NCBI GenBank assembly: GCA_963971425.1
Contig: OZ020514.1
Span: forward strand, 45,351,527-45,415,526
Length of the DNA: 64,000 nucleotides
Reading direction: 5' to 3'
DNA from: Bryoerythrophyllum caledonicum
Taxonomy: Eukaryota > Streptophyta > Bryopsida > Pottiales > Pottiaceae
In this document: positions 12,171-40,774 of the stretch, one piece after another
Layout: each line of letters begins with the position of its first letter
Numbering within the stretch: the stretch's first letter is position 1
Notes under the pieces: generated by a model
The model's input: only the letters and a program-made list of their open reading frames with translations
Told to the model about the DNA's origin: nothing
Databases searched by the model: none
Made by a program: the position numbers and the translations under genes

Positions 12171-12182
12171 AAAGAAAATCGG

Positions 12183-16961: not shown

Positions 16962-16981
16962 CAGCCGGAGATCTCCAGCTG
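16962..16981. repeat. Element B palindrome inside an intron
   Basis: CAGCCGGAGATCTCCAGCTG lies in the intron between the GQH exon (17024-17245) and the next exon (16187-16932). A related GCTGGTGATCTCCGGCT sits in another intron at about 15209-15226, and AGAGATCTCGA lies at 17286. Intron placement parallels elements C and D. Confidence 0.75.
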
Positions 16982-17379
16982 ATTAATTTGGTTAATGTAA
17001 AGGAAGGGCGCATCGACGGAATACTATTCACGTTGAGAACTCAATTTTATCAAAAACGCCTCAGATTGAGGATGACCATATAGTTCAAGGGCAAGTTTTC
17101 TGAATGGCAATACGTGAGCGAAAATTTTCTGCGCCTCCACAATATGCTGACCACTAATTATGTAGAAGTGCGTTGTGTCCTTTAGGCAGTTGCTTAAGTA
17201 GTTTATTAGGTTTATAGTGATTATTAAACCCGGTCTTGAAATCACTAGATTAAGTCACACAAATTCATTTCAAAAGAGTCCCTAAAGAGATCTCGAGATG
17301 AAAGTCTAAAATCAGCATTTAACCTAAATTAACTAGTTGAGTTTAGAAGGTAGTTAGAAGTAGTATAGACCTTCTAGAT

Positions 17380-18740: not shown

Positions 18741-18746
18741 GTCATG

Positions 18747-18800
18747 TAACGCCAGATTCATTAAAATGAGACATTTTAGAGTCTCAATTTATCATTGTGT
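18747..18800. mobile_element. Left TIR and hairpin of element C
   Basis: TAACGCCAGATTCATTAAAA (18747-18766) is followed by TGAGACATTTTAGAGTCTCA, an inverted pair able to form a hairpin. Its CCAnATT core also resembles the A, B and D ends, so the family ends appear to be related but diverged. Confidence 0.65.
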
Positions 18801-19506
18801 CTAATTATAGTGAATTTTTTGTTTCATTAATTTGAGACTATTTATTAAATTGAGACTTAAGCTCAATTGAAATTGCCAAGTACTACATTCTAAAAAATTA
18901 TCATAGCAAGAATAAAAATACTTCATAAAAATTTGAGCGGATATAAATTTGAGCATCCCTAGCAGGGCTCAAAATTAAACTAAAATAAGACATTTACACT
19001 CATTTATAAGCCACCCAAAATGCATGTCTTCTCAATTTAAAGGGAAATAAAAATTACCAATTTCAAGAAGTGGTACATGTTTCAAACAACAAGGTCATTA
19101 AAATACCAATCACTAAAAAATTAGCACATACTCTAGAAATACATTCAAATATTTATATTAATAGAAAGTATCCATGCATCAAGGATAAATGCACAATTAA
19201 TCAAACACACAATGTGAACCACAATTTATCCATCAATAACTTTATAAACAAACGGCAACGTTTAATGATATTGAAGCAACACAATAAATCACTATTCGAA
19301 ACTACAAATTCTAATCTAATATTGTCTACAAATATGCTACGCGAACATTCAAAGTCTCAATTCCACGACAGACCCCCATGTTCAGTACATACTTAGTACA
19401 ATATCTAGTCCAAAACAATACAAGTTCAAATAAGAACATGCACCCCCACCTATTTCGAATTACTAGGATAACTGTTGCCATCAAAAAACAAAAAACCTCT
19501 TGAAAT

Positions 19507-22320
19507 CTAATATTCAGCTAAAGATGCCTTGATTATTTCTACTTGTGATTTTGGAATTTTGAGCCTCGAAGAACTAATGTTCCCACGGAACCTAGGCTTC
19601 CAAGCTGTTACAATGCAATCTGTATATACCCAGATTGGTTCAGATTCAGATTCTTCTACCCAATTGTTCCCATTACTAGAATCCCACCCTTGGTATGTTT
19701 CTAAGTCCACATGACGTTGAGATGCAGGTTTGTAGTATTGCACTTTAATCTCATGAGAATGTTCACGATCTGGATGTGGATTAGTCAATGCCAAGGCGAT
19801 CCAAAATGGGCGCAAATCCCCATCAGCTGAACGCACCGCAAGTACATAGCCCTCATATACATCTCTACCAACCCGGAACGATGGAGGCGGACAATGACGT
19901 CGTTGTCCAATGAATGGAGGGTCTTCGGCATACTCCTCCCTCAATGTACCATCTATATCGTACTCATCCACCATAGATGGAGCATATCTAGATAGTGGCC
20001 AAAATCCCTCTCGTAGAGAACTCGATTCTTCGAGTGGCACCTCAAGAGCAGCCTTTACACCTCTCCAATAATACATGATATGCTCATTCTTCCTCCTGTA
20101 TTCACCTGAGATATCCTCATTTGCCATGGATTCCCAAAGACTTAGAAATCCAGAAATACCCTTCATAACCTCGTCATAATTCTCATGACGTCGCGGATTG
20201 AGAGGAAGTGGCTACCCATGAGGCAATATTGGTCTACCATCTGCCGTCATTTTCCACAACTGAATTCCTCCATTCTCCTCGGGCAACCAATCCCTATCTG
20301 TACAAAGAATTTTGTACTGCATCTTTGGCAAACCATCAGAATCCTTGTAAAATTTGAACTGCTGGCCCTTTGTATGACCTGTAAGGGCCTCATTGTTGAT
20401 GCACAAATATCCATTAAGAAAGCCCTTGAAGTCGGGCACCTCTTCAATAAGATGTGGAATAACTGGCTTCTCTTCAGCATCCATAAATGACTTCATTAAG
20501 AGCGGAATTGTTGGATAGCTATTTGACTTAAGTTTGGTACTCCATCTCCCAAACATTGCATCAATATCCTCGTGACTATGACCAACAAGTATGAAGTTCA
20601 CGTGTACTTCTCGGAAAATACCCAAATGAACAAGTAGGGAGAAGAAAGCAAACACAAATCTATTCTTATTGTCTCCTATGGCATTATCCAATTGCATTTG
20701 TAGAATTGGTGGTAAGTGCCTTGCAGGAACAGGTTCAACCGGTGGAGCCGCAAGGGATCCAAGGCACACATTGGCATTAGGAAGCACAACCTTAGACAGT
20801 GGAGAAGCTCTCCTTCTTGCAAATAATTCACGAGAAGAATACATCGGTGGACTCTCTAAGTCCCGAAGCAACTTAGCAATGGATCCAACTCTCTAATTCG
20901 AGTCGGTGGGGAAGATGTCAAGACTATAATGCGCATAACGGACATCTCCATGTCCATGAGCAATCATTCCAGTCACAGCTACATGGAGTTTCATGAAGGA
21001 CTCCGTCGCTTTATTCTTGTGAGAAAAATGGAGAGATGCTGTTTTGCTGTGATCCATTTTATCATGGATGATGCAAACAACGTCATTTGGTCTATCCTCC
21101 GAGTTCTTCCGGTTGCCATAATATAAAATACGATGAGTCTGTTGGGAGGCCTGATGCAACTTCAATTTGGTATCCCACGTATTGAATGAAGAGGACCCTC
21201 GTGTACTAGCCTTCTTCAATTGCTTCAATTAGTCGCATCTACCGCAGCGAGCAAAGTTGTCACCCGGCTTCTTAGTGGAAAAATGTTCAAATTCTGAGCT
21301 CCGAATTCGGCTAAGACCAGACAAAGATATTGGTTTGAGACCAAATCTTCAATTCACCTCATTCACTTTGGGCAACACTACACTCCATTGAAAGGAGGAG
21401 GGAAGATGTTTCGAAACAACCTTCTCCCCAGTGCCAAGAGTAGTAGTCTTGTTAGGACTACTATCAGCAGCATCGTCAAGTAGGTCGTGCAATGTAGCAA
21501 TTGCTTGGAGAATATGGGTGCGAGGCTTCTTAGTCCCAGAATTGTCGTGTGCCATCACTCGTACTTCATCCTTTGCATCACTTTTGTATCGATAGAATGT
21601 GGCTCGGCTAACCTCCATGATTGTACACCATGCATCTTGGCATACATCAATTCCATCGAGCGTCACCACATGGTTGCCATTGAAGTCAATGTGCATTTGC
21701 CTATGCACATCAAGCAAAACATGTTTCCGAAAGTATACACCTCCAATGTCATTGTGAACTTGCGTTCGAAGTACAGAAATTAAACTGTGCGGAAAGCGTT
21801 GCGTACAATTTCTTGGACAACAAACAATGCTCGCAACAAGGTTGATCGATTGTGCAGAAAGGAGTATTTCCTTCTTTGGTGGAGAAGGCAGCACTCGTCT
21901 CAACCAATTACTCTCATACTGTCGAAGACCAATTCTTGGACCCCGACGGAATACCTTCAAAGCAGCATTGTAAATGCTAGTTTGCTCTTGGTCGTACAAA
22001 CTCACATTACGAAGAAAGACCTGTCGAATTGGCCATGCTCGGAGAGCAAACATCCAATTCAAGGGAATATCATCCTCATTTAAGGATTCAACAATCAGAA
22101 TCGCGACATGATCATCTCCAAGTGGCCGGCCTCCAGTTTCAGGAATTAAACTGGAATCAACACTCTGTCATAGTCCGATTCCGACGTTATTCCCTGATGT
22201 GTTTTGAAGGATAACGCGCTTCGAAAACCAGGCAGCGAGAGGAATACCCTCACAAGGAGCAACATCGGAAGGCAAGGTTGGAGGAGCTCAATCTCTGACA
22301 TCAAATGAGTCTCCTTCCAT
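19507..22320 (-). pseudogene. DUF7869-like putative transposase, copy 3 (one frame, six in-frame stops)
   Basis: A single 938-codon frame runs from ATG at 22320 to TAG at 19507 with no frameshift. It is interrupted by TGA at 22288, 22168 and 21349, TAA at 21229, and TAG at 20893 and 20212. In order it shows LRAWPIRQVFL; a helix-turn-helix-like segment (VCQDAWCTIMEVSRATFYRY, ~21640); CGRC (~21240); IIHDKMDHSKTA (~21060); LQMQLDNAIGDNKNR (~20700); GHSHEDIDAMFGRW (~20575); HTKGQQFKFYKD; and a C-terminal domain with PFWIALAL and VQYYKPA. DKMD, LDN and HEDID are candidate acidic stations of a DDE/D transposase; the DUF7869 naming is from memory of the family. Each stop can be read as CGA, CAA or CAG after a C-to-T change. 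C-element palindromes crowd its upstream region. Confidence 0.75.
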
Positions 22321-22464
22321 CTACAATAAATCCATTTGACGTGGCTTTAGTTGAGAAATGAAGTTCATTGAAATATGAAAAATAATAAGCACCTTGAATC
22401 CAAAGCAATATAAATTTGGACAAGTGCATTTAGGCACAAAGGCAATATCCAAAAACGCGACTGA

Positions 22465-23257
22465 GTATCCTCGGCTCAAGGATATGAATGAGAGAAATTA
22501 GAAATACACATGAATATTTATTTAAACAGTATCCTCGATTCGAAGATACTAAGATAATATTATGATGCCAATGGAGAGAGCGACATCCTAGCCGTCTCAA
22601 AAAATATCAACAGTCATTTAAGTACTTGTTAAGATACATTGAAGACGAGTAGAATTAAGTAGGTCGATCATCGACGAGTAAAAGTTCAGTACGGACTCGA
22701 GGAAAAATGAAGTGTAGACGATCTCTTCTTTTAAGTAAACAAGAAGAGTTGATTAAAATTTAGATTGGCATTCTTTTATGGATAATATGGGATTATCCTC
22801 GGGTCGAGGATAGACCGACTACTAATAATTTGAAGTACTTTATAGTGAAACTTAACCGACGAAACGATTCAGTCCTTAAATAAGAATCTCATTTATAGGA
22901 TTTGTTGATCGACAGCCGAACTAGCAAAAGGCAGTATTATCCTCGACCCGAGGATAAATTTAATGACTATCTCACTCATAGGACTCGTTGATCGACTGCT
23001 GTACAAGCGAGAGTCAGTGGTATCCTCGACCCGAGGATAAATGGAATGAGGATCATTTTATATGACTCATTGATCAGTTGCTGAACTAGCGAGAGTCAGT
23101 GTTATCCTCTCATAGGTCACGTTGGTTGACTGATGAACTAGGAAGAGTCAGTGATATCCTCGACCCGAGGATAAATGGAATGAGGATCTCATTCATAGGA
23201 TTTGTTGATCAACACCTGAACTAGCAAGAATCAATTTTATCCTCGACCCGAGGATAA
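22465..23257. repeat. Palindrome array C upstream of the transposase
   Basis: At least seven palindromes of the TATCCTCGACCCGAGGATA type occur at about 22465, 22529, 22793, 22937, 23021, 23155 and 23237, plus a half site at 23103. From 22860 on they lie in a tandem unit of roughly 85-135 bp containing GTTGATCGAC and GAACTAGC. The array begins about 145 bp upstream of the transposase ATG. The central bases favour ACCC rather than the GAGTC common on the right arm. Confidence 0.9.
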
Positions 23258-23269
23258 ATGGTTAGTTTA

Positions 23270-24092
23270 AAATAGTAATGTGATATGCTACAGTGATCAT
23301 GAGTAGCGTTGGAGCATTCACAGCACACTTCCTTTTAATTGCAAACAAATTCTACGGTGCATCAGAAGTACTACACCAAGAATAATGATATCGACAATGA
23401 AAGAAATACACATACTTTGAACAAACAACCGTGATGCGGACGGCCTATGGGCTCGGGTCAGGTTTAGGGTCGAATGATAACAGCTAAGCCTCAGACAACA
23501 ATCTCTTGATGTTGAAGTACCCTTGAGAGGAAATCGAGCTCTCCACAAGGATGCATAAATGAAAAAGAAGTACAAACATACTTCAGATAAACTCAGACAT
23601 ATTATTGATGACTGCTGTGAATGTTCTCAAAACAAGCAAGACACTGAGCGGAGTAGAGAGAGAGAAAAGAGGATGCAGCAGGTGCAAGAGTAGGAAATGG
23701 ACTTTTGAAAACGAACATACAGTAGTCTTCCACGTGGCGGAGCACAAAAAGTGGCGCTAGGCGGGAAAACTTTATTCCAACGGCTCCAGGATTTGGGGGG
23801 CAGGAAATGGTATCCACAGTCCTACTTCTTAGCTGCCGATGTCCTATTTTGGGTTTGACATATGCACTAATTGCAGTAAGCCACTAGCCCGGAATCCACG
23901 CATGCATTGAAAAAGTGATGGATTGGATAAGTGATGCCTTCCTTTCTGTGTAGTAATCCTTCCTTTCTGTGCAGTAATCCTTCCTTTCTGTGCAGTAAAG
24001 GCTCTCTTTACTTGTGTCACAAAAAAATAAAAATAAATAAATAAGTTTAAAACGAAAAGAAAAAGATAAGTGATGACACAAATTTATCCCCT
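23270..24092. other. Stretch without a supported gene, with a 21-bp triplet repeat
   Basis: No convincing coding sequence. Positions 23937-23999 hold three tandem 21-bp units CCTTCCTTTCTGTGYAGTAA(T). The remainder has no feature I can name. It links the palindrome array to a MITE copy. Confidence 0.6.
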
Positions 24093-24096
24093 TTAA

Positions 24097-24749
24097 CCCC
24101 TAAATGATCAACTGTCCCCCCAGGATGAAATTGGTTTTCCGGCATGTACCTAAAATTTGACCAAAATTCAATTTTTAAAGATAACCTCATCAGTAGATTG
24201 CCTTTAATAAGAGCTACTAAGAGGTTTTTTTTTAAAATATTAGTTTTGCGGTTTAAACGTAAGTACCACTCAAAGTAAAAAAAACGGGGACTCCAGGCAG
24301 CTCCAAAATATTGGACAATAGTTTCTATTGACATTGAGATTTATCACACAAATAACAAATATTTTCTTCACTTGAAATTTTCTAAAATAGTTCTTGCCTT
24401 TAGTGGAAAAAGGAATTTTATCCCAACTCAAACATTTTCACACATTGCCGGGCAACGGGGAAAAAAACTTCATCTTTTCTACATAAAACCTAGAGATCTT
24501 CATGTTTTTCACATTTATTTTTTCAAAAAAAATATGTGGTGAAAACCTTCTTATTGACCGTTTATATTGTCATTCGAAAACATACGTAGTTCACCAAAAT
24601 ATATGTGAAATATCAATTTTGAACCTCCCCTCCTTGCACACTTGTTTTGAATATGCTACACCCCTTTTTTACCTCTAAAAATTGGTATGTTGGGAAATGT
24701 ATGTGAAACATCACGCTTAAGACAATGGTAAGAGATTTAGACCTTGTAC
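24097..24749. mobile_element. Second copy of the TTAA-type MITE, broken by a Tigger-like insertion
   Basis: TTAA at 24093-24096 is followed by CCCCTAAATGATCA and a body homologous to 13626-14270. Shared features include GTTTCTATTGACAT, CGGGCAACGGGG and CTAGAGATCTTCAT. Homology stops at CTTGTA (24749), where the element at 24750 begins. The far end of this MITE is not found after that insertion. Confidence 0.7.
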
Positions 24750-27060
24750 AGTCAAACCTTGATATGTGTTACCTCAATAAGTGTTAAAACTCTAGATGTG
24801 TTATGGAGATTTCCGCTCCCTTAAAATTAAAACTAGTAAGTGTTATGTGTTAAGCGTTAAGCAATGTCGCACTCCCAACTTTGTTGAATTTACCTCGGTA
24901 AATGATAAGTTTCCAAAAAAAGACTTTTTGTAAGAGCCATTGCTTGCGGGGAGATAATTTTGAGGTAAAGTAATAGTTTCTTGTTGCAAAGTGACTCTAG
25001 ATGTCTATTCTAGAAACAAATTGATAGGTAGATGTATTTTTAAGTTCATAAACTAATAGATCATATCTTTTTAAGCTCATAAAGTAAAGGATAAGTGTAC
25101 TTTTAAGTTTATAAACTTAATAATGAAAGGCAACTAGGCAAGGCGGCAAAGATTATAAGAAGAGACTGAAGGCTATAGAATTATTATTTGTGTTGTGAAC
25201 TCATTCATAGAATATATGTTGTTAGAGTTTTCAATTGTATTGCAAATTCATCAATAGAAGATATATTGTTCAAGAAAATTTCCTATAGTTTGCAATGGCA
25301 AAGGGTCATGAGTTCACGTTAGAGCAAATACAAGAGATTATTCAATGTCGTGAGACTCTGTTAGCTAGTGGTGGAAAGATTACCAATAGAGCATTAACTG
25401 CGTGGGCCAATGCACACTTTCAAGTAAACGCGTCTGAGATGAATATTGGAAGAATAGTAAAGCAAAAAGAATACATTAGTGGACTTGATGTTGGGTACCT
25501 CGGTGATTCCAAGCGCTTACAAAAGTCCCAATGCCCAGAAGTGGAGGAAGCCACTTTTACTTGGTTTACGATAATGCAGGAAAAGAATGTTGTTTTATCT
25601 GATGACCTTGTGGTGGCTGCTCCAAAGACATTTTACGCAGTACTTCCTAGAGGTGCTAACGAGAAGGAGCTTCAATTTTCTCATGGATGGGTCCAAAATT
25701 TCAAGAAGATATGTAATATCAAGGGCTATACCCGTCATGGAGAAGATGCATCAGCTGACATTTGTAAATCTGAGGTTTTTTAAGAAAATGGAAGACATCA
25801 AAACACTTGTATCTCAATACAGGAGTAGTGATGTTTTCAATATGGATGAAACTGGTCTTTTTTACAGGTTGGAACCAAATCATACATTAGCTATGTAAAC
25901 GTTATCTGGAAAAAAAAAGCAGAAGGAGCGCATCACGGTGGCACTTACCGCAAATGCTGATGGAAGCATCATTCTTCGTCCATTGGTTATCAATCAATAT
26001 TTGAAGCCTCGAGCTTTTACAAGCACGCACATTCAAAACCCAGAAAATCTAGGTATACAATGCCATGCTAATAAAAAAACATGGATGACAACACAGATTT
26101 TTGAACAATTTATGTTATATTTTGAGAGGAGGATGGTAAGTGCCGAGAAGGAGAAAGTACTTTTGTTGGTGGATAATTTTTCTGGACATCAAGTGCTTAA
26201 TGTAGGTTCAAGATTGAAGGTGACACAAAATTTAGAGTTTTTGCCTCCAGATACAACTAGTCGTTTCTAGCCTAGATCATTGCATCATTCAAAGCTCAAT
26301 ACATGAAGTTATTAATTCAACATCAAATAGATTGTATTTCAACTGGCAAGAGACTAGAGTTTGGCGATTGATGTGTACCAAGATGTGACCATGGTTGAGA
26401 AGGCTTGGCGTAACGGAGTGACTCCAACAACAATTCGAAATTGTTGAAGACACACAGGAATTCTTTCAATTCTTGTAGAAAATGAAGTCCTTCAAGAGCA
26501 GCGCACGAAAGAGGTAGAGGAGGCTGTTGCTGTATTGGAACAACTAAGTTTGATATCCTCTGAGACTGAGACCCCTTACATGAATGTTCAAGAGTATTTA
26601 AATTATGAGATGGAGTTTGATTTGAATAATCCTTATCAGCCCACTGATGAAGAAATTTATTTAAATGCTTCCATCTCAACAACAAGGTAGTGAACATGAA
26701 GATAGTGATCCTGATGAAGCTAATCCTCACGATATAGTAGAAGTTGTAGGCTTTAAAGATGTAGTTAGTGCTCTTCAAACTTTGAAGAAGTTTTTGGAGC
26801 AAAGACCTAAAGACACCATGTTATCTATGAGGTATATTGAAGCACTAGAAATGAAAGTAGAAGCTTGGCGTGTAGCAAAAACTTGCCAAAGTACTATTGA
26901 TTCATTCTTTCAACAGACTTAGATGAATAATGAATCAATGTTTTGTAATTTCATCCATTTTTTCTATAAATGTTATGTATTTACCTTTATAATTCTTCTG
27001 AGTGTTATTTTTTATAAGTGTTACAAATCATCGGCATCACTCTCTATAAGTGTTAAGTGT
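24750..27060 (+). mobile_element. pogo/Tigger-like DNA transposon, right end unclear
   Basis: CAGTCAAACCTTGATATGTG begins immediately after TA at 24748-24749. This resembles pogo/Tigger ends, which insert at TA. The segment carries a Tigger-like transposase relic (25295-26922). I could not find the matching inverted end; homology seems lost near 27060, where fragments of an inverted MITE begin. Confidence 0.6.
25295..26922 (+). pseudogene. pogo/Tigger-like transposase, broken
   Basis: The first frame (25295-25783) has an N-terminal helix-turn-helix region and a CENP-B-type DNA-binding segment ending in SHGWVQNFKKICNIKGYTRHG. After a frameshift near 25780, the DDE domain continues with VFNMDETGLFYRL (first Asp), RITVALTANADGS, LLLVDNFSGH (second Asp) and LEFLPPDTTSRF. 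A stop at 25896 and another at 26268 follow, and the usual third acidic residue region is degraded. The tail at 26665-26922 is in another frame. The order and motifs are characteristic of the Tc1/mariner superfamily, pogo/Tigger branch. It cannot be functional as read. Confidence 0.85.
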
Positions 27061-27079
27061 TACTAGTGCCTAAATGTTA

Positions 27080-27480
27080 ACTAAAAGTATGCTCCCAATC
27101 CCTAACACGGTCACTAAGAAGGATTAGACCACGTCATGTAATAGAACTTAGAAGGATTAGACCACGTCTTGTAATAGAAGGGGTGGTACAATTTGAAAAA
27201 ATTGTGCAAGGAGTGGAGGTTGGAATGTTGCCATTTCACTTAATAATTTGGGAACAAAGTATGCTTTCCCCATGGTCACTAAGAAGGATTAGACCACGTC
27301 TTGTAATAGAACTAATACATAGTGAAAATTATAAAGTGACAAAATTATATGTAGAATAGAATTATGTTTTTCTACATCCTTGGCTGACTATTTGTGGATT
27401 TTGTGAACATATTTGAGTGGGATAAAATGCATTTTTTCACTACGGACTATAAAAGATTCGGGACCATATAAAAAACAATG
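27080..27480 (-). mobile_element. Inverted, rearranged fragment of the TTAA-type MITE
   Basis: Read on the minus strand, this region resembles the MITE at about 13930-14220: compare GTGCAAGGAGTGGAGGTT and TTGCCATTTCAC near 27205-27240, and TGAGTGGGATAAAATGCA near 27412. A segment AAGGATTAGACCACGTC is repeated three times (about 27119, 27152 and 27282), suggesting local duplication. Confidence 0.5.
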
Positions 27481-27489
27481 TATTAAACT

Positions 27490-30400
27490 TAACCTAGTGT
27501 TGAAAATCAAAAATATAGTACTGTGTCTTGGCAAATGTTTTGGGAGTTGATGGAAAAGCCCGCAATAAAAATAAAATATAAATGGAATATACGCTTTAAT
27601 TGAAATCCAAATTCACTTGGTGTTATAAAGATATATATCCACTTCAATTCTACTTGAATCCACATTGGTGAATATATTCCACTTGAATGCCCATTGGTGA
27701 ATATATTCTATTTGAATCAACATTGGTGAATATTTTGCACTTGGTGTTATTCGAATGCTACCCATAAATAATATTCACATAGTACTAGACAAGTTACTTT
27801 TAGAAGTGGCATTCTTTGGTTAAAAAAAAATAATGTTGCAATCTTTATTTAGAAATTGACAAATTTACTTTAATTGAAATCCATTATTTTTCTCATTTCT
27901 CAACTTAAATTCAGTGTGTGTGAGTGTGTGTGAGTGTGTGTGAGTGTGTGTGTTTTATGTGTGAGTCTATGTATGTGTGTCTTAGACACACATTTAACTA
28001 ATATGAATTGAATTTAATAGTTCATTTTTAAGAACATAGTTTAGGGTTTTATTTATATGAGTAATTTACAAAAATATTTGGAGCTTTGGATATTACAAGT
28101 TGCTATGTGGTGTATGATCAAATTATTTGCTTGCATTTAAATTTCTCTTCATGTTACTTTTGCTTGCCAAGAAAAGGTAAGTAGTTTTAACATTTATATT
28201 TGATCATGGATTCCATGGCAAAACCAATAATCGGCTTGTACATGTCAATTTATATATATTATTATTTATGAATATCTTTATAGTAAAAATGTCAAAGTTC
28301 AATTTCATTTTCATGCATGAATTTGCAAATGGAATATCATGTTTGTTATTTTAAATAAAACTCATGAAGGAACATAGTTTCTTTATTTCTTGAATTATTT
28401 TGCACAATTTTCTGTTTGCAATCCTAGGGACAAATAATTTGATCACAATGCGCACCTTTAGGTTTCCATTTCCCTGTTATGCGCATGACTATACATATTC
28501 ACATACATACATTTTGTTGCATAAGTATAAATTATAAATTATTATTGAAATGAAGTTGTAATTGAGTACTCTAAATAATCAGAATCATCCATAAAGTTCA
28601 TTACAGTCAACAACACATTTAAAAGTAACTTCTTTGTACTTATGAAAATATTATTTCTGGATAGTATTAATTTCTTTATTACGTGAACAAGAACATTTTA
28701 AAAATCAGAATTCAATACCATTAAATATAATCAATTAGACCTATATCGTACATTTGCTTCAATTTCCTTGGTGTTATAAAGAAATGAAATCCACATTGTA
28801 TGCTTTTTTTTTGCTTTTTTGATATGAATGGTTTGTTTAGGGTTTAATAAAGTTTGATTCATTTCTCCATTTCCAAGTACATATGTATATTGATTTCTCC
28901 ATTGATTTTTATTTACTTGTTACACTAGTTTTCTGAATGTGCACAAAGTACTCCATGTAGTTTGAAAAAAAAAGAATTGAACCTTAGCATGCTATATCAA
29001 TTTTGATTTCAATGAAAGTGTATATTCTATGTCTTAAAATTTGTTTATTTACGAGCAATTCCGGCAACTCTGATTTTTTTTTCAAGAACACACTACTATA
29101 TTTGAGATTTTCAACACTAGTAAGTTGTATACATTTTCTTATATATTGTCCATAATCAATTATTGTCTATAGCAAAAAAATGCATTTTATCCATAGTAAA
29201 AGATTTTTCACGCATTGCCACTACACTCAAGATGGCTTTTACTGTAATGATACAAATCGTGTATTTACCCTTGTACAATATTTGTTAAGAAATTACCAAG
29301 TACTGTTAGCCCCCATTGACATTAATATTATCTTTCAGTCCTGCACCTACCCTAATACCCGTTGTATTTGCCTCAATCAACCACCCACCAAAATTTGTAT
29401 CAAGTTGACAAATAGTGTTAGCCCCCAATCAACCGCCTATTGGCCGCCATGCATATAATACACCCGTCTTGTCAACAACCACATCTCGTTATCCTCCCAT
29501 TTGTAACTATTCCAATTCACATATCATGCATTCCTTGAATTAAAAACATAAATATCCAACTAATATTGAATGTATATTTCTACATTTTACAAAAAAAAGG
29601 ATGATTCTAGAATGAATGTTTCAAGAATATTCAATGCATGTTTCTATATTTTAGAAATGCATAGATGAGTTTTGAATGAATGTTTCAAGAGTATTGAAAG
29701 TATATTTCTATATTGAAGAAAAAAAATATGATTTTTGAATGATTGTTTCAAGAATATTTAATGTATATTGCAATCTTCAAAGAGTCAAGCATAGTTAATG
29801 TATCTTTGTATCATTTTAGGAATATTAAAAAAAACATATACAAATATTTAAGGAATATTTGTATATGTAAGGTATATCAATATGTTTGAATAATATTTAT
29901 TCTACATATGCATATTTAACGAATACTTATTGTATATTATTATATTTAAAGATCATTTAGGGAATACTTCAATAGTTTTATTTAAGTTTTAAGAGTTTTA
30001 TATTTATTTTTCCTAGGATGATTAAAATATCTAATGTATATTTGCATTAGAAAGGAACATTTAATGAATTGCTAATAAATTTTTTAATGTATATTTAATG
30101 TGTATTTGAATATTAATAAAAATTTCAATGAATATTTGATGCATATTTAATAAATATGTATTGAGTATGATATGTAAATATCTATTTTTATGAGATATTT
30201 ATGTTTTTTTTGTTTTGAAAATTTCTTTTATTTTTCCTCGTCTCTTCTAATCAATTTTCAAATTTTGTTAATCTTGTAGTTCTAGTTTCGAATTTTCTCC
30301 TTACGAACAATTTTTGTTCTCTAATTTTTGGGATTTTTCATTTGTTCCATATCTACGTTCTATTTTTTTCAAACATTCCTTGTGCAAATTTACAAGTAGA

Positions 30401-31785
30401 AAAAATACTATAGTAAATAAAAATTTAGTTGAAATAGTAAATCGCAAATTATCTAAAAATTTAGTAAATGTAAATGAAGCCAAAAATTAGTATATGTAAA
30501 ATTAGTAAATATTTAGCAAATGTAAATCCAAAGTAGTAAATTTATTGTAGTGTACTATAGAAAATTTAGTTGACATTTCAATTACAAGAAATGGTGTAAA
30601 ATTTTTGGATTGAAAAGTCCCTTTTGCAGTAAAGGTCTCCGTTTGTTTTTCTTTTGTTTTTTTTTTATGACCGCTGCCTGTTCTCGTGTTGCCCGCTCCC
30701 GATTCCCCTGCCCGCTGCCCGAAACGACATTTGGCGGCGCGGTGAACCACCGCGACTCTCACCTCTCTCCCCATTCTCTCTTCACCTTCTCTTTGCGTAC
30801 TCCCGCGGCTTTCCCTCTTCCACTCCAAACCTCCCCATTTCCTCTTCTTCTTCAAACCCTATCCATTATCTCTTCCACTTCAAACCCTCCCCAACTGTGA
30901 GATGTGTGAGGTTTCTGTGAGGTGCGTGTGAAGGTGTGTGTAGGTTTTGTGTGTGTGAGGTGCGCGTCTAGGGTTTGTGTGTGTGAGCTGCGTGAGTAGT
31001 GTTTGAGTGTGTGAGGTTTGTGTGTAGGGTTTCTGTGTGTGAGGTGCGCGAGTAGTGTTTGTGTGTGTGAGGTTTGTGTGTAGGGTTTGTGTGTTGGAAG
31101 TGTGTGTGTGTGAGGTGTGTATGTGAGGTTTGTGTGACGCGCGTGTGTGAGGTGTGTGTGTGTGTGAGGTGTGTATGTGAGGTTTGTGTGACAAGCGTGT
31201 GTGAGGTGTGTGTGTGTGTGAGGTGTGTATGTGAGGAGTGTGTGTGTGAGGTTTGTGTGAGGTTTGTGTGCGTTGTGTGTGTGAGGTTGGTGTAAGATTT
31301 GTGTGAGGTTTTTGTGAGGTTCGTGTGAGATTTGTGTGTGGCTTGTGTGAGGTTTACGTGTGAGGTTTGTGTGAAGTGTATACTTGAGAGGGGTTAGTTA
31401 CTGTGATTGTTTAGGTGCTCTTAGGGTAAGATAGTGAGTTTAGGGTTTCGATTTAGAGTATTTCACCATAAAGCATAGTGCAAGATTTCGTGAGGGTTTA
31501 GGGTTTCTACAACACAGACATTTCTTTGTAGAGTTTGCTGTGTTCATATTTCCAAGTGCTTTGTGTTACATTGTGCATCATTCTGTGTTGTTTACCATTG
31601 TGCACATTACAGTATTCCTCAATTACATTGTGTACAATTTAGTTGATCACAATCACAAAATAGACTTCAAATCATTTCGCAAGGTACTCACTTCTAAGAT
31701 CATTTGAGTTGCAATGCTGATGAAACAGTTCAATCTAATATAAAAATATTACCGGTAATTTATGGACTTAGGGTTCTAGGATCAC
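27490..31785. other. AT-rich non-coding stretch of element C
   Basis: No supported gene in 4.3 kb. Features are low complexity: a (GTGTGTGTGA)n tract near 27915-27965; repeated AATGTATATTTCTATATT-like units with GTTTCAAGAATATT between 29560 and 29780; and AT-rich DNA throughout. A short GC-rich patch at 30670-30890 has open frames on both strands but nothing recognisable. Degraded insertions are likely. Confidence 0.6.
30900..31385. repeat. GT-rich low-complexity tract
   Basis: Irregular repeats of GTGTGTGAGG, GAGGTTTGTGTG and related units run for almost 500 bp. Long open frames across it (for example 31074-31295) encode only CVCVRCV-type repeats and are artefacts of the repeat. Confidence 0.85.
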
Positions 31786-31790
31786 AGCTA

Positions 31791-32459
31791 ATCCTCGACT
31801 CGAGGATACGTTATAGACCTTCGTCTAGCAACTTATCCTTGAGTCGAGGATAAGAGTCCATCCTTTGATTATATTTTATCCTCGAGTCGAGGATAAAATA
31901 AGTAAAATAAATAATCAAATAATTAATAACTTAAATATTAGTTCCGCTGAATCAAAATATTCTACTAATTTCTTCATATCAGTATAAAGTATCCTCAAGT
32001 CGAGGATAAGTGTAAGTCTTTTGCAACAGATCTATCTTGCTTATCAAATAATTCGACTCATCAAAATACTCACCATTAATAGGTTGTATTAAACTGATGT
32101 ATGATGTATCCTAACTCACAACCCTTTCGTAGTTGATCGAAGTATCCTCGACTCGAGGATATTTGTTAGTCCCAAGGTGATCAGTCTATGCTCCAATCAA
32201 GATTAAAAGCATATATTAAGAAAATAATATTACAAGGATGAATTAGGACTGATGCACAAAGAAAAATATCGTAAATTTCTGTCTCAAATAATCACAGTAT
32301 CACCGAGTCGAGGATACAATTCAACCTCTGACACTAACCATAAAAACTTCGTTGCATTTCACAATTAAAATAATGCTCACATACTTTAGCCGAGGATGGG
32401 TTCAGAATAAATATTATCTAAGTCAGAATTAGTTGATAACTATCCTCGACTCGAGGATA
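31791..32459. repeat. Palindrome cluster C upstream of the ParB/methyltransferase-like gene
   Basis: Palindromes of the type TATCCTCGASTCGAGGATA occur at about 31790, 31833, 31876, 31989, 32143 and 32441. Damaged copies lie near 32298 and 32388. The last perfect copy (32441-32459) is 62 bp before the ATG at 32521. Unlike the left-arm array, spacing is irregular and the flanks are not obviously tandem, so the palindromes themselves seem to be what is maintained. Confidence 0.9.
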
Positions 32460-33908
32460 ATAATAGTTGTTATCATCTAACTCTTTTTGCGAATGTATCC
32501 TCGCAAACAACCTCATCACAATGGATCCCGTCGACGGCTACGACTACTCGGGGTCAACGTACTTCATCACGGAGTTTGAAAATCCCGTTGCCTTGCTACC
32601 TTTCATCGACGATGTCGTCGAGAACTACGGCAAGCTGTGGTTGCTCAACCCCGACATCCTAGGATGAACCCTCTTCAGGTCGGAAAAGAACGTTCATCTA
32701 TCGTTCAAATTGAAAGAGAAAATTCCGTATGTTCCACTGAACAGAAACGAGAGAGTGACGTTCGTGGAGCAACGCCGTCGTGATTACATCGTTCTCGGTA
32801 TCCAGGCCGTGGACAATGCTGGGGAAGACCTACCGCATTTTCACTCGATTGTTGTGAAAGTCGGCGACACTTTCGGACAATTTGACTTCAACGAATTGCT
32901 TGAGAGTGCCGATAAGAATGGACAAGGGGATCTGCGTCAGGCGTTTGAAAAATACAGTCCGTGGTCAAACGACGATGCTGAGAAGGTTAAGAGGAGACTG
33001 GTACGTATTCACCAACTCCTATCGAACTTTGAGGCCCGTCCGATTCCTGTTGCTCCACCTCCACGACGTCGGCCCAAGCAGAAGAGCGCAACAGCCGGCG
33101 AGGTTACCACAGAAGCGGCAAATGCGACTCGAAGCACGAGTCGTGGTGCACCTCGGAGGACTTCTGAGATGGCCTCAAACCTAGGGCAACCTTCCAAACG
33201 GAAGAAGACTGCTACGACCAGTGGGAGTTCGACCTCGACTGTTACGAGGGCTGCAACTCCGGCCAAATCGCGCAATGATCCCCAAGTAGACTTTGAAAAG
33301 ATAACGGAGTCCCAGAGATTGTTTTGGGAGGAGTGCAATTCATGCTTTCCGTTCGAGTCCACATTCACAGTGAACATCGAACAGTGTGTGCCCGCAAAAG
33401 CCCAGTTCGTGATTCGTGGAATGGAGGAGGGCATTGTCCGGAACTCCATGGACTTTTTGGTCCAACTTGGAGAGATAAACCAGCGTCAGAAAATTTGCAT
33501 TTGCCCGATCGATGACGCTAGAGAACCGATAACGCGGAAGCCTAATTCCTATGAAGATATCAAGGGTGGGAAGTTCATGCTGATCAACGGCCAACACAAC
33601 GTCGAAGCTTCAAGAAGACTTCAAAGTGTTGAACAATGCGGGGAGCAACAAAAACGAAACCTGTGCCGATGGGATGCATATGTTGTCTGGACAACGGATC
33701 CTCTGAAGTTGCAGAGGATTTCAAAGTTTTACAACGACACCAACTACCTTGATCATGCCTAGCCTACGTGGGGGAACCAGATTTCAAGCTGTAGGAGAAT
33801 CTGGCTCAACTCTGGTAGACCCAGCTACCAACGCGACGAGGGCGACTTGCGAATGAATGGTGCCAACTTTGACCAAGAGAAGTATTTGGTAAGGTTCCAG
33901 TTCCCGAA

Positions 33909-34006
33909 GTATCCTCGAGTTGAGGATAATCTTCCATGGCTTTTATGTGCTCCCGCTAGTTGATTTTTTATATGCATCTTGTCAAAGTATCCTCGAGCCG
34001 AGGATC
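33909..34006. repeat. Two C palindromes in intron 1
   Basis: GTATCCTCGAGTTGAGGAT (from about 33909) and a copy at 33988-34006 lie inside the 175-bp intron between exons 1 and 2, which has GTAAGG at its start and TATTGCAG at its end. They occupy a large share of this short intron. Confidence 0.85.
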
Positions 34007-35413
34007 CTCTTCCATGCGGTATCGAAGATAAAGTTTTCTAATGTTGTCTGTATTGTATTGCAGTTGTTTGCGAAGTTGATTGTCACGCGCTTCCAGAACA
34101 TCGACCCCACGAGGGAAGGAAAGCAAGTGAACAAGTCATTGGACCTTACCAATGAGATTAAGGTCATCACTCTTCCAGATGACATTTTCAACCTCTGGGA
34201 AGAATTCCGCGATCAGCACAGCCGCGGAGAAATCGTTAATCCCGACATAGCTTGTCCATACAAGGACGCTAGGGGTTTCAAGCCTTCCCCAATCCACCGT
34301 GAGTTTTTTAAAAGGTTGGGTCATCTGTCAGACCAGGATTTAAGAGATTTGTTCACTTACCTGGTTGATAGTGATCGCGGGCAAGGTTATCCGAAGGTCA
34401 CGCTTTGTAGGACTGGCGTGGTACATGGATCGTGCTACCACTACGAGGAGTGGGCTGATCGAAGGAAGAAGAAGCGCGTCGTCATGCAGGAGTTGGTGCA
34501 CATCGACCCATCTTTATTGTTTTTACTTCCGAATGGGTCGATCAACGACGCAATGTGGAAGGAGTGGAAGGAGAAACACCGTGTATCTTCTGCTACTTAC
34601 AACATCCTCCTCTGTCAACCGGACAAGGAGTTCTGGTCGATGAGGTTGACCAATGCGGGGAAGCTGAAACGAGCATCTCATCTGTTGGAGAAGTTCCCGA
34701 ACGTTCTTCCGTTCTTCAAGAAATTTCTACATTTGAAGAACTTGTTCACCCCGCACGATGGATATGTGAAACTTCGCGAGTTTAACGCAGAGAAGCTGGA
34801 GTTTGGTGATTACTTTACCCCTCCAGATGATTCTAAGGAGTTTACACTGGGACTTCTCGACCTCCGTGAGGTACCCGGATGGCTGTCCAAGGACGACTCC
34901 CTGGACGAACCATACTTTGCAGACTTCATGAATGCCATGAAGTTGCAAAAGAGTACCCCAAACATGAGCACTCCTCATGTTTGGGTCTGGATCACCTCCT
35001 CTGCCAATCGTGCGTTGCAAGCGGCAAAGTTTGCCGAGAAGCGAATGGCCCGGTATTCGCCCGTCTCCTCGGCGTACCTTTCGTCAGCGAATGAGCGCTT
35101 GTACTACGGGACGTCCAGGGCTAAGGTTACGGATGTGAACCTACTCTTCTTAGTGAAGAAGAGTCATCCCCAGGCTTCCGTGCTCATCAACAAAGTGAGG
35201 CCGTTCTACTCTGCACCAGATACATTCTTCTACAAAGAGAAGAATAAGTATCTGGAGGCAGAATTCTCCGTCCACGGCTCCGAATTACGGATGGAGTTTT
35301 ACTTGGAGCTACTCCAGGACTTCTGCAATCGAAAGGAGAGGGTTTTCGGAATTTTTTGTGGTTCCAAATTTATGCTGTCCAATCCGGTATGCTCTCATTT
35401 GAATCATTGTAGT

Positions 35414-35544
35414 CTATCCTCGAGTCGAGGATACAACTTTTAGTATGTTGTCGTCTGTTATTTTGTAGGCTATCCTCGAGTCAAGGATAGCCAGTTCTAT
35501 CTGATCATTAGTTATACAGTGGTTTATCCTCGAGTCGAGGATAG
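35414..35544. repeat. Three C palindromes in intron 2
   Basis: Copies at 35414-35434, 35470-35490 and 35524-35544 sit in the 230-bp intron directly after the glycine-rich motif exon, spaced 54-56 bp apart. Two are perfect; one has a single mismatch. Introns of the B and D genes also carry their own palindromes. Confidence 0.9.
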
Positions 35545-36868
35545 ACAATTGATTTCATTTCAGATAAAATTTGCCATTATCCAATTTCTAATCTTATGTT
35601 CTCATGTCTCATGCAGATATTTGGAACGTCTTTCTGTGGATTCATTGATGAATCCTTCCGGCTTCAGTACAAGAATCAAATGCAGCGCATTTTCAGTTGG
35701 GTATGAATGATTTCATCCACAAGGACTGTGCTTACCTTCAGCCTTTGTCAACCAACGCTGGAGGTGCATCTACATCGACCGCTCAGGTTGCACCTCCGGA
35801 ACGCGTTCCAAGGGCCCGGATATCGCCAAAGAGGGCTGAACGTGTTCACAACCGTGCTCAACGCTCAGGTGTTGGATCGTGGCAGGACTCCCCCAAGACC
35901 CAGAGGGCATCTGGTACCGGTGCACCGACTCAGCAGCCTCCTCAGGATAACTCTCCCTTGCTCGTCAATCCATATGGGAGCAATGACAGCGTCGATCTTT
36001 CGATCCTTAGCTTGGATGATAGTGAGCCATCATATCGACCTTGTAGTAGATCGCCGCCTCGCCGACCTCCTATGCTCGCGGACGAAGACCTTCCGGTATA
36101 CGGCGAAGCCGTTCATATGGAAGTTCAAGGCGGTCCTGACATATCTCCTTTGGTTGGTACAGCCCCCTCACCAGGTGTTCCCATCGCTGGTAATGCCTCT
36201 GCCCTAGATGGTCCCGTCGCTGGTACCGCCCCTGCACCAGATGTTTCTGTCGCTGGTACTGCCCCCGCAGTAGATGTTCCTATCGCTCGTACCGTTGTCA
36301 AATATGTCCCTGTCATCCTGCTGTCCGACTCCAGTGATGATGAAGGTGGAGATCGTCCCAGTACATCTCAGAATGTGGTGGCACGGACCGTGGTGACAAT
36401 GATGGTTACGATGGATGTGGAGGACGCTCCCTTGCATAAGGCCGCCTCCGTAGATGCAGCTGGGCATGCTCCGGCCCCTCGCCCTCCTGTGGAAGGCGCC
36501 TCTTTAGCTGATGACGCCTTCGCAAATGCAGCTGGGCATGCTCCGACCCCTGGGCTGCCTGTGAAGTACGAACCTGGTGCTGACTTTTATGAGCACCAAC
36601 GCAACCAACGCCTTGAGGAACAACAGGAGAGGCAGACAATCTTGGCACAGTTAGAGGCTGCCCAGAAGAGACAGGCTGAGATGGAATCTGCTTTCGAGAA
36701 GCAGCAGGCGGAGTCTGATGAATAGTAGGAGAGAATGGCGGCGTCAATCCGTGCGGAGATCCAAGCGCAGATGTTGGTGGAACTCAACAGATGTCTTGCT
36801 GAGCAAGCTCACATTTCGATTCCCATCCCCGCTACTCCATCCGGATCCGTCGTGTCTCATCCCTCCAC

Positions 36869-37048
36869 TTATCCTCGCATCGAGGATAACTCTGTGACTG
36901 AGCCTCAGTCTCGTTCAACTGGATTGCAACCTTGCACTTCATCTAACCCACTTGGAGAAGCCGTCGTTTCGGTTGAGGTGTCAGTTCTTCACGGGGATAT
37001 CCCCTTTTCATCGTCCGGGCCTTCTGAGTATCCTCGACCCGAGGATAC
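36869..37048. repeat. C palindromes inside coding sequence (YPRxED)
   Basis: Two palindromes (36869-36889 and 37029-37048) fall inside exon 3 and are read in the same frame, giving TYPRIEDN and EYPRPEDT. Both lie in a low-complexity region. The frame-compatible placement suggests either tolerance or selection for palindromes that stay open when translated. Confidence 0.85.
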
Positions 37049-37529
37049 CCTACCTTTTAATTCATCTCCGATTTCGCCTCTGATAGATGGGGTCGGCTTT
37101 GCTGTTCGTGTGCGTGAAGTCAATGTTGATTGTGCTCCTCGCGGTTCGACTCTTTTGGTCCCTGTTCAACTTGTGGAAGAGTCGTCTCATGCGGTAGCTG
37201 CGGTGTAGGGAGAAGAGGTGTGCATGGAGGAGCGCGTCGACTACGAGCCGTCTCCTGAGCCTCAGGGACCACAGTCATCAGAGGTGGATAAGGTTGGCTA
37301 GCTTTTTAATACATTTTGCCCGTTTTATCACGAAGTGCAGCCTTGATTTTTTGGAATGACTGTGCTCAGCCTCAGACTCAGTAGGTTTTTTCTTGGATGT
37401 GATTCCATGCAGGAGTCAGATCCATACGCATTTTGATGTACTATACGAGGAGTATATATTTTTGTAAATACAATGTTATCATAATTCAAAGAATTGTTTA
37501 ACAATTCATTTTCTTCAATTGTTTCTCAG

Positions 37530-38524
37530 ATTGGATTGGATGACATTGTCCACCGTCCTCTTGCATTGAAGTCTCCAATTGGGATAGTTGTATGCCAGTC
37601 GCTATGTGGGGGGGAATTTGTGCAAGCAGTGGCAATTCCATTGCATATTACTCAATCTGCATTTTATCAGGTACCTACCACTTATTGCTACCATTGACTG
37701 TATTGTGTGTTGGTCCTGTCCCAGGACCATGTTCCTAGAACTGTGTCCGTTGTTGAGAGCGCCGGACCAGCAAAGTGGCTAAATCTCGTCATGGATTTGA
37801 ATGGCATTCTATGCGTGACGGATTCAGTCTCTATTGCTGTGAGGCTTACCGCGCATAGCTCACAACGGACTGATTATTCGTCCATCATTCCTACCTTGAT
37901 TGGACCAAAGGCGGTCTACTTTCCTTCTGGTGTTCGTGAGTTTTTATCGGTCATCAGAAACTTTCTGAACTCTGTCGTCATCTGGAGCTCTATGAAGAAA
38001 TCCACAGTCGAGGCGATCGCGGTCTCTTCAGGGATCTAGGGCCTCTTTTTCTTGTTCTAGGTCAAGAGAAATGTTCACAGATAAAAACTTCGCGGAATGT
38101 GTACCTCATGGCTAAAGATAATAAAGAGAAGCCAATGTTTTTGAAAACCTTGTCGAAAACGTTGTTTAGCCTTCGACATGAGCCGGTAGTCTTTAACTCC
38201 GACAACACTCTTCTTATAGACAACAGCCCGGAGAAGAGTGTTTGTAATTTTACCGGGAACGCCATCTTCTTGCCTCCATGGAGACGTGGAGATACGAATG
38301 ATAATGTTCTTACCGGGACCCTTCTTTCGTGGCTTCTTCGCTTGCATTCTGAATGTCTTCTTGGGCAGTTGAAGAATTACGTCGATAGTAATCGTATAGG
38401 GACACCTCCTTTGGTGCATGATAGTCCTATAATGAAGCATATCATTGATGGAATGGCGCTCTCCACAAGGAACATGGGTACTGCGTACGAGATTCCTAAT
38501 GTTTTTAATTCAGCTCCTAAATAG
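37530..38524 (+). pseudogene. FCP1/NIF-like HAD protein, element C
   Basis: Exon 37530-37670 (acceptor TTTCTCAG, donor CAG|GTACCT) joins in phase to an exon starting 37725 (acceptor GTCCCAG). Motif I is LVMDLNGILC; motif II is VVIWSSM; LLIDNSPEKSV is the late aspartate motif. A one-base frameshift near 38035 separates the halves, after which GPLFLVLGQEKCS continues. The latter matches LLFVYGRNKCS of the second HAD gene in D, so this is the HAD2 type, but unlike B and D it keeps the nucleophile Asp. A stop at 38522 is followed by a hairpin GTAGGAGTAACTCCTAC (about 38527). No separate HAD1 gene was found in C. The first exon is unidentified. Confidence 0.6.
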
Positions 38525-38827
38525 TTGTAGGAGTAACTCCTACTCAAGATATAGGGGAACTTCATATATGTAGGGGTTTTCAATGTAGGTTTAGTGCGCT
38601 GGATAGATTTTGTGATATACTTGTAGCAAAAACGTACTTGTAAATCTTGTATATATTTTGAAAACTGTTAATATATAAATCCGTTCGTTTTCTCCTTCTA
38701 CAAATTTGTCGTGTTTGTCACCTCTTATGATTCCATGAACTTATCTTCGAGACAATCATAATTTCATTGCCACGCATGTGTTCATGTTTCTTTCTCTCAT
38801 TCCTTCCTTTATTCCAATGTATTTCAG

Positions 38828-39571
38828 GTTTCAAAGTCTAGTGTTGATCCTACCGCATGCTTGAATATTGGTAGTATGCTGCCCTCGAATGTTAGCGTCA
38901 TTCCGGAGTACTCTGGGTCTTATGGTGGTGACATCTCCCAACCTCAACAATCGAAACCATATCTTATGTGCACTGCAACTGATGTTGCCTCTGCTATCAT
39001 GGACTTCTCCAAGCAGAAGGTCGATGATGGTGTTGTGGATAGCCCTCCCAAGCGGAGGGCTGGGATAGTGCCTGTTGCATCCCCTTCACCTCTCAAGCGG
39101 ATGTTTGCTGAAGTTCAAGATAGAACCGATTGTACTCCTCAACGGAATCTTTACGGAGATGATGGTGTCCATCTGAACATAGAGAAGGAGGATGTGCCTA
39201 ATTCTTTTGATCGTAGACAGCCGCCCGCTAAGCAAAGCCGGTATTCCGCTACACGTTCTCAAGGTGCAATGAAGGAAATAGCCTGTTCCAGTCGTTCAGT
39301 GAGGTGTCAAACTCAATCTGTAGGTGTACAGCCAAGGCTTCGAAGCTCAGGACCGTCAACGAATCAAGTGAAGTCCGTTCCGTCTCGAGTTCGTGATGGT
39401 CGTAGGGATGATATTGGTCTGTGTCCTATGTCATCACTTTTTGAGAGTGTGCTAGCAGTTGACCCGGACTGGTGTTTTAAGCCTTATTCTCGGAGAAGGG
39501 AAATCATGATTGGTTATGCAAAATTTAAAGCACAAGAGGCATTGTGTCTGAAGGCCCTAGAACTTGAGTAA
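38828..39571 (+). CDS. Basic low-complexity protein, last ORF of element C
   Basis: An open frame of 248 codons follows a good acceptor (TGTATTTCAG). It is rich in Ser, Pro, Arg and Gln, with PPKRRAG and PLKRMF clusters resembling nuclear localisation signals. The C-terminal part (SRRREIMIGYAKFKAQEALC) may be helical. I recognise no domain. It could be a terminal exon of the HAD gene or a separate gene; the in-frame stop at 38522 makes the link unclear. No matching ORF is seen in B or D. It ends about 0.7 kb from the right TIR. Confidence 0.5.
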   Translation, partial: VSKSSVDPTACLNIGSMLPSNVSVIPEYSGSYGGDISQPQQSKPYLMCTATDVASAIMDFSKQKVDDGVVDSPPKRRAGIVPVASPSPLKRMFAEVQDRTDCTPQRNLYGDDGVHLNIEKEDVPNSFDRRQPPAKQSRYSATRSQGAMKEIACSSRSVRCQTQSVGVQPRLRSSGPSTNQVKSVPSRVRDGRRDDIGLCPMSSLFESVLAVDPDWCFKPYSRRREIMIGYAKFKAQEALCLKALELE

Positions 39572-40239
39572 AATGTATCTAATAGGTACATTTAGTAGAC
39601 AATATTATATGATGATTCTATTTGTTAGGGTTGATTTTTCTAGAATCTATTCCGGAAGTTGTCTCCGTGTATAGCCAGCAGTGAGTTGTTTGAATTTTAT
39701 AAATAAAGTTTTCTAAATGATTCATTTCGTTTGTGCATATTATTCTAAATGCATGTATTTTTGTATGGTGTTCTATTATTAATAATTTGTAGTCGAAATT
39801 GTTGCATGTTTACTTTGCTTTTGCCTTCTACCATGCTTTCACCTTTGTTTTGTTACTTGTGATTTCTAATTTTAGATTGCCATTTTTCAAGAGCATTTAG
39901 TTTTGGTGAATGGTTGGTTCTCTTTGGTAGTAGCGAAGATAGATCTATCATGTCATATCACTTTAAATTAACAATTAACCTAATGTCTAAGTCTTTAGTT
40001 CTTATTTGAAACATAACACAATAGTATGTACTCTTAGAGAACTGTCTTCCAACATAGGCACTCCCTAACTTGTTGATAATTGGCCCAAATTCAGTAAATT
40101 ACCTTTTCTTCTAAGACAAATATTTAGAATTTTGCCCTTACAATGTTGGGGGGATCGCTAAGTGATTCTTTTCCTTATGTTGTTTATTGTATTTTACAGT
40201 TTGCAATAACTATACACGTTGGTTATTGTTCCGAAATAA
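39572..40239. other. Non-coding sequence before the right end of C
   Basis: AT-rich sequence without palindromes or a supported ORF. It is comparable in length with the 0.7 kb between transposase and end on the other arm. Confidence 0.6.
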
Positions 40240-40294
40240 TAGGCTTTTAGTCTCAAAATTCACAATTTGTCTCATTTTAATGAATATGGTGTTA
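40240..40294. mobile_element. Right TIR of element C
   Basis: The minus strand from 40294 reads TAACACCATATTCATTAAAA then TGAGACAAATTG, matching 18747 inward with two differences in the first 23 bases. A second TTGAGACT follows instead of the inverted GTCTCA seen on the left. Confidence 0.65.
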
Positions 40295-40774
40295 TGTATG
40301 CAATCCGAGCTCTCCAACCATTGAAGGTATTCTCAGAGCGTAGGTTTAGAATTAAACTGAAAGCAAATACAAACATCAAGCAGTGAAGAGAGAGGCCACG
40401 AGACTCCTCTCTTATATTGCCAAGGACTCTCACAAGAGTCCAAACTCAACAATACCTTCTAACGGTGACATTAACTACTCTTGGCGGCGGTGGCTGCCAC
40501 TCCACACGACGTGCACCGTCAGAGGTCACTTATTACACAAAACCCAAGGCAAAACCAAGTCAAAATCCAAAGTCAATGCGGGGCCTAGTCCGCGAATGAA
40601 CACTGACCTACCAACTAATGATTCTGACCCTACTTCCGGGTCAACTCCTCAAGTCTTCTCTTCTCTTCCCTCCTCTTCTGCTTCTTCGCGCTCTTGCTCG
40701 AAGTTGGATTTGCCGCAACCTTCGCGAGTGTTAGAAGAGGTGAACGCAGATCGGCAGATGAAGATGGTGCCGAT

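Follow-up and report, generated by a model that had tools for sequence, protein, structure and literature searches.

The stretch of DNA analysed here, 64,000 nucleotides of Bryoerythrophyllum caledonicum (C1:45351527-45415526; hereafter the window), contains a large DNA transposon, termed element C, together with parts of the related elements A, E, B and D. Several families of large DNA transposons, of ~14 to 38 kb, are present in this genome. What is new is that each opened element carries ~20 to 48 copies of an 18–20 bp palindrome, mostly in non-coding DNA, and that the palindromic word differs between families. We propose that these are cut-and-paste DNA transposons in which an element-encoded protein, most likely the product of a gene termed GQH, binds the palindromes, marks the element's own DNA and counters silencing, a reading to which we give a probability of about one half.

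Element C is a terminal inverted repeat (TIR) transposon with a 4-bp target duplication, ATGT/ATGT. Its left end, AACGCCAGATTCATTAAAATGAGACA, starts at 18748 and the inverted partner ends at 40293, giving 26-bp TIRs with two mismatches. A sequence-only reading of this DNA had proposed one kind of two-armed transposon with C bounded by paired ends, and the TIRs and duplication bear this out. The ends that it placed at 18747 and 40294 are indeed inverted, with both coordinates off by one (18748/40293), and the end motif that it quoted, GCCACATTTAACTAAAT, is not that of C but of the sister families (A and D). It also took C to be complete, which holds for the structure but not for the coding regions: an in-frame stop at 20212-20214 splits the transposase, and a stop at 32665-32667 lies early in the GQH frame by a by-eye reading, the frame extending back through it to an ATG at 32521. 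C2, another element of the C type (19,468 bp, L057/L058), has CCTT on either side. The features of C are as follows.

18748..40293, no strand: element C, between inverted ends (TIR and target duplication)
18744..18747, no strand: left copy of the 4-bp target duplication, ATGT
40294..40297, no strand: right copy of the 4-bp target duplication, ATGT
18748..18773, + strand: left TIR
40268..40293, − strand: right TIR
19507..22167, − strand: DUF7869 transposase gene, open stretches with the in-frame stop (PF25273, 5.2e-38 for 20212-20892)
22466..23256, no strand: seven family-C palindromes upstream of the transposase gene
25289..26270, + strand: Tc5/pogo-type transposase pieces (PF03221, PF03184), probably a nested insertion
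31790..32459, no strand: seven family-C palindromes upstream of the GQH gene
32668..33762, + strand: GQH gene, first open stretch, holding LINGQHNVEASRRL (E 8e-5 and 4e-4 against sister-family GQH)
33893..35443, + strand: GQH gene, second open stretch
33910..37047, no strand: seven more palindromes in or between the GQH stretches, at 33910, 33988, 35415, 35471, 35525, 36870 and 37029
37940..38524, + strand: HAD (NIF, CTD-phosphatase-like) gene (PF03031, 3.5e-5)
38762..39571, + strand: last gene of C, also in C2

The ends of these elements recur throughout the genome assembly (437 Mb, 894 contigs). The C-type core ATTCATTAAAATGAGACA has 196 + 212 copies, with none for a reversed-pattern control, and GCCACATTTAACTAAAT, which terminates sister families (A right end at 4971-4989, D left end at 47953), has 55 + 53 = 108, again with a control of zero. 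The full end of the sister families to which the window's A and D belong is ATGCCACATTTAACTAAAT, and the copies split into several subfamilies having different ends, a division that the sequence-only reading had missed. From the first 100 of the 108 listed GCCACATTTAACTAAAT places, 21 pairs of convergent neighbours at most 38 kb apart were obtained. An exact 4-bp duplication flanks 18 of the 21 pairs, and in L013/14 and L021/22 its two copies show a single-base difference; no pair has a duplication of 3, 5, 6 or 7 bp. Among unpaired flanks, 5 of 420 combinations match. An initial reading of a two-base AT duplication was rejected, as AT is part of the end itself and the four duplicated bases lie outside it. 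Within 60 kb, the 63 GCCACATTTAACTAAAT-type ends on contig C1 form 12 facing pairs and one facing away (chance mean for facing 1.1, maximum 5 in 2000 randomisations). C-type ends within 30 kb behave similarly, with 14 facing, 4 away and 2 in the same direction (first 100 of 408), against a mean of 5.0 and at most 11 facing in strand shuffles. L002/L003 (C1:13877361-13913059) was rejected as one element, since two HAD-side ends face each other across 35.7 kb with no duplication; it appears to be a rearranged or merged pair. In L035/L036, also among the 21, the second end belongs to no known class. Contig C1 makes up 15% of the genome but holds 63 of the 108 GCCACATTTAACTAAAT ends and, given this excess, could be a sex chromosome or another chromosome with low recombination.

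Two insertions have uninterrupted paralogous sites, that is, empty sites. E4, one of five similar copies of family 1 (E1–E5, as distinct from element E of the window), interrupts the last gene of a C-type element. When joined with one TTAG, the E4 flanks align over the junction to L049 (88%, 391 columns) and to L056 (88%, extending 26 bases beyond the junction), with 71% to C2 and 73% to window positions 39206-38945. C2 in turn sits within an E-type transposase gene, and its joined flanks plus one CCTT align without gaps to window positions 8088-8382 (90% over 295). L033/L034 against 7081-7272 of the window is a weaker third case, at 68%. The uninterrupted relatives at the E4 and C2 sites thus indicate that the families inserted into one another, and did so cleanly.

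Ten end pairs were opened for genes, five of them in the outer 10 kb of each side only. All ten carry a DUF7869 transposase on one arm and GQH and HAD genes on the other, with the transposase facing out of one end and GQH/HAD out of the other, a layout also found in C2. The gene order that the sequence-only reading described as shared thus recurs, and the two arms, whose failure to occur together between paired ends elsewhere would have spoken against it, do so in every opened pair. For this transposase, DUF7869 is the sole family model that reached its cut-off; no Mutator model did. A structure model of the protein has a DDE-type fold, so that inverted ends with a fixed-length duplication, empty sites and a DDE transposase, the marks of a TIR transposon, are found together. 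Pfam gives DUF7869 no function, and its relatives span liverwort to coral and lancelet. It is very likely a transposase, because it is tied to the ends, the 4-bp duplication and the empty sites; it presumably catalyses the cutting. The closest named relatives come from the liverwort Riccia sorocarpa, which together with the intron-broken genes suggests a land plant, perhaps a bryophyte. Pattern scans of IMG/VR matched 31 and 101 stretches and confirmed no protein relative in viral contigs, and a virus or provirus was rejected on this basis.

The HAD proteins are relatives of phosphatases acting on the RNA polymerase II tail. PF03031 lies above its curated cut-off in the C gene, the inner D gene and both genes of L020. 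The catalytic motif of the NIF/CTD-phosphatase branch of HAD is DxD; by eye, the inner L020 gene (LDLNG) retains the first aspartate only and the outer (LSVNG) neither, and with the first aspartate lost, the outer protein is unlikely to be a conventional phosphatase. The prediction of HAD genes holds for D and for one gene of C. It does not extend to the last gene of C (38762-39571), which has no Pfam match to E 0.1, and C therefore shows one HAD gene versus two in the sister families.

The GQH protein has a HYVIIGGQHxVAA-like stretch in family 1, the D family and a fourth subfamily; its counterpart is LINGQHNVEASRRL in C and, with weak support, ISGQHIVEAQ in B. Likeness among the GQH proteins is 38-59% for family 1, the D family and the fourth subfamily, and ~20% between C and any of these. 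With the first exon as query, at least 97 scored matches were obtained in the genome. On C1, 26 of the 38 matches with less than 57% identity to the query are placed inward of an exact GCCAC-type end no more than 40 kb away; none of the 20 with 57% or more is, a group that includes the fourth subfamily, for which no ends were found. Two protein-database searches, each of ~8,000 scored candidates, gave at least one and at least three homologues. The sequence-only description of this gene as ParB/methyltransferase-like finds no backing: the GQH pieces have no family match, to a methyltransferase or otherwise, in Pfam, NCBIfam, PHROGs or PADLOC, no match to ParB (PF02195) or DGQHR to E 10 in Pfam and NCBIfam (where HMMER filters drop most matches above ~0.1), and nothing below E 0.7 among solved structures. 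These searches thus give no support for ParB, DGQHR or methyltransferase homology. The conserved stretch does recall the ParB/Srx N-domain, and the strand–helix order of a very poor structure model (pLDDT 34, from 4 sequences) does likewise.

The palindromes, which the sequence-only reading had overlooked, were recovered by a blind search for repeated near-palindromes, in which five Markov controls per sequence never gave more than one. Clusters of 19 sites were recovered in C, 14 in C2, 25 in E4, 20 in E2 and 9 in A of the window, with smaller clusters in the D-family loci (2-4), E (3) and B (2); outside the elements, 40298-47948 has 3 sites, inside a 250-bp tandem repeat. Counting words with up to 4 mismatches unless stated, the C word TATCCTCGANTCGAGGATA gives 21 sites in C (chance expectation at 3 mismatches, none) and 21 in C2, the family-1 word ATCGTAGGATCCTACGAT has 27-30 in each of E1–E5, the D-family word GATNGRAAGATCTTYCNATC has 11-28 per fetched arm and so 27 to 48 per two arms, and the E word TTTAGCTCGACTCGAGCTAAA has 6 in E. 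The words barely cross: C and E are without the others' sites, and D-family arms have 0-6 weak matches to the family-1 word, to which the D-family word is related. Site profiles have edges sharpened by selection of sites for likeness to the word, with core values of 0.82-1.00 and flanks ≤0.46 in family 1 (145 sites, five similar copies), 0.80-1.00 except for a centre of 0.45 and flanks ≤0.55 in C (42 sites), and 0.46-1.00 and flanks ≤0.48 in D (111 sites). Between C and C2, 11 of the 21 C palindromes are matched and 10 are not, while the 80 bases beside the sites are ~40% alike and effectively unaligned. Exact family-1 palindromes number 220 in the whole genome (control 0). Among the first 50, 41 are placed inward of an exact end, against 1.8 at random and 9 at most, and the remaining nine form two clusters with no exact end nearby.

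Within elements, the sites concentrate upstream of the transposase gene, upstream of or inside the GQH gene, and near the HAD genes; in three families they occur ahead of both the transposase and GQH genes and in GQH introns. The C sites at 36870 and 37029 fall in an open frame. Tandem arrays hold several palindromes (83-bp array, 22886-23109; 47-bp array, 6585-6743), and the mid-portions of E2–E5 and C are tandem-repeat DNA that varies from copy to copy. A centre of 0–1 base leaves no room for a loop, so the palindromes are likelier to be DNA sites than RNA hairpins, and the latter were rejected. Sites with a CpG in each half number 89 of 145 in family 1 and 33 of 42 in family C, against just 10 of 111 in the D family; binding to the family-1 and family-C palindromes could be methylation-sensitive.

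The fourth GQH subfamily was predicted beforehand to have its own palindrome. Two copies (L059, L060) have 17-18 sites per 10 kb of the word GATCGTANGATCNTACGATC, intermediate between those of family 1 and the D family; the prediction was right as to clustering and wrong as to distinctness. That every subfamily has its own palindrome is thus only partly true, the fourth subfamily's word being close to its sister's. A fair statement is that sites appear to drift along with the protein, with related words where GQH is 38-59% alike and an unrelated word in C, at ~20%.

The closest known parallel for such motifs is offered by the VANDAL elements of Arabidopsis, described in PMC5735166 as multi-gene DNA transposons with VANC anti-silencing proteins, whose motif is dense in non-coding DNA, in accessory-gene introns and upstream of VANA, varies between related families and is spread by tandem repeats. 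The elements described here are likewise multi-gene plant DNA transposons with a short, family-specific motif dense in their non-coding parts, the near-sister word of the fourth subfamily being the exception. Unlike VANDAL as described there, they have a DUF7869 transposase only and no match to a Mutator model, a palindrome of 18-20 bp rather than a directed word of 8-9 bp, GQH (no family match) and HAD as accessory genes and a 4-bp duplication.

In the mechanism that we propose, the DUF7869 protein, with its DDE-type fold, would act on the short inverted ends and leave the 4-bp target duplication. An element-made protein, most likely GQH, would bind the palindromes as a dimer, and binding would mark the element's own DNA and keep its genes expressed despite host silencing, with the HAD proteins as possible partners of the binder. 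GQH is favoured by analogy with VANC and because many sites (14 of 21 in C, 14 of 30 in E4) lie within or just ahead of the gene that encodes it. Weighing against GQH as binder, the D-family pair L021/L022 has 28 sites on the transposase side versus 20 on the GQH side. Anti-silencing or self-activation is placed first among possible purposes. At somewhat less than even odds, the elements may form a new plant DNA-transposon superfamily with a self-recognition code, in which a possibly ParB-like protein and a private palindrome drift together as an independent equivalent of VANC with dimeric sites.

A role for the transposase as the palindrome binder, with the palindromes serving as internal or subterminal assembly sites that help to unite the ends of a long element, is unlikely. 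CACTA subterminal repeats are bound by an element protein, and E4 has four sites within ~0.7 kb of its transposase-side end and three (two with 3 mismatches) within ~0.4 kb of the other, but most sites lie deep inside, before and within genes. A ParB–parS-like system, in which GQH would load on the palindromes and spread or bridge, with compaction or an aid to segregation or replication as the result, is less probable again. The size of parS is similar to that of these palindromes and the ParB/Srx resemblances noted above point the same way, yet the absence of a ParB family match to E 10 and the pLDDT of 34 tell against it, and an integrated element has no need of a partition system. The least probable reading is that the palindromes are host transcription-factor sites or were spread by slippage without function; the sites in the 83-bp and 47-bp arrays and the three-site cluster outside the elements are consistent with it, but families C, E and 1/D have different words at like places, and 11 of the 21 sites in C persist in C2 while their flanks do not.

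The remaining elements of the window are arranged as follows.

1236..3611, + strand: element A transposase arm, family 1
4971..4989, − strand: element A right end, ATGCCACATTTAACTAAAT
6585..6743, no strand: element E palindromes like TTTAGCTCGACTCGAGCTAAA, in the 47-bp tandem array
6689..9344, + strand: element E transposase arm
10353..10382, − strand: element E right end, C-like by eye, AACACCATACTCGTTAT... at 10382
11070..11120, + strand: element B possible left end, weak
11730..13145, − strand: element B genes resembling the D-element HAD genes
16408..17179, − strand: element B GQH-like pieces (second exon E 5e-6; ISGQHIVEAQ at 17120-17179, E 0.03)
47953..47971, + strand: element D left end (the right end falls beyond the window, ~26.7 kb away)
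48485..50066, − strand: element D, two HAD genes (PF03031, 1.8e-13 for 49359-50066)
62154..63514, − strand: element D GQH gene, second exon

Related ends had been claimed for all of A, E, B and D. Those of A, D and E stand; that of B, at 11070, has 5 mismatches in 19, no better than shuffles, and the bases beyond it resemble a sister-family HAD-side end by eye. A repeat of ~670 bp, 80% alike, occurs at 13621-14291 in B and 24092-24764 in C. Element D also contains a protein-kinase-like gene (52606-54226, PF00069) with no match in the other compared loci, possibly cargo or a nested insertion, and a hAT transposase (DUF659, Dimer_Tnp_hAT; 58456-59817) lies inside its span. At 55743-57929, GC-rich DNA (~58-64%) adjoining a 200-N gap codes for a bacterial-type glycosyltransferase and for a protein with weak FAD/lycopene-cyclase likeness, and is perhaps assembly contamination or a transferred piece.

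Target duplications of CACTA elements are 3 bp, and Sola and certain other superfamilies combine a 4-bp duplication with a DDE transposase. In size, the present elements resemble large CACTA elements such as that of 20.5 kb reported in soybean (PMC2613891), being plant TIR transposons of ~20 kb, and differ in end sequence and transposase family. They share the 4-bp duplication and DDE transposase of Sola, a superfamily named with others in PMC4455052; giant plant DNA elements have been reviewed (PMC6431247). Fungal DNA transposons carrying a TET/JBP gene (PMC12730594) likewise have a gene that possibly acts on host epigenetic marks, with other transposases and another accessory gene. No description of DUF7869 elements was found in the open-licence literature among the matches listed. 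The elements may thus be a variant within the known large plant DNA transposons, and DUF7869 may or may not correspond to a Repbase superfamily such as Sola.

DUF7869, a family without a function in Pfam, is now tied to transposon ends, a 4-bp duplication and empty sites. The palindromes, if read correctly, would provide a second testable case of a transposon dodging silencing by tagging itself, and the presence of at least four GQH subfamilies in one genome makes joint change of protein and site directly testable.

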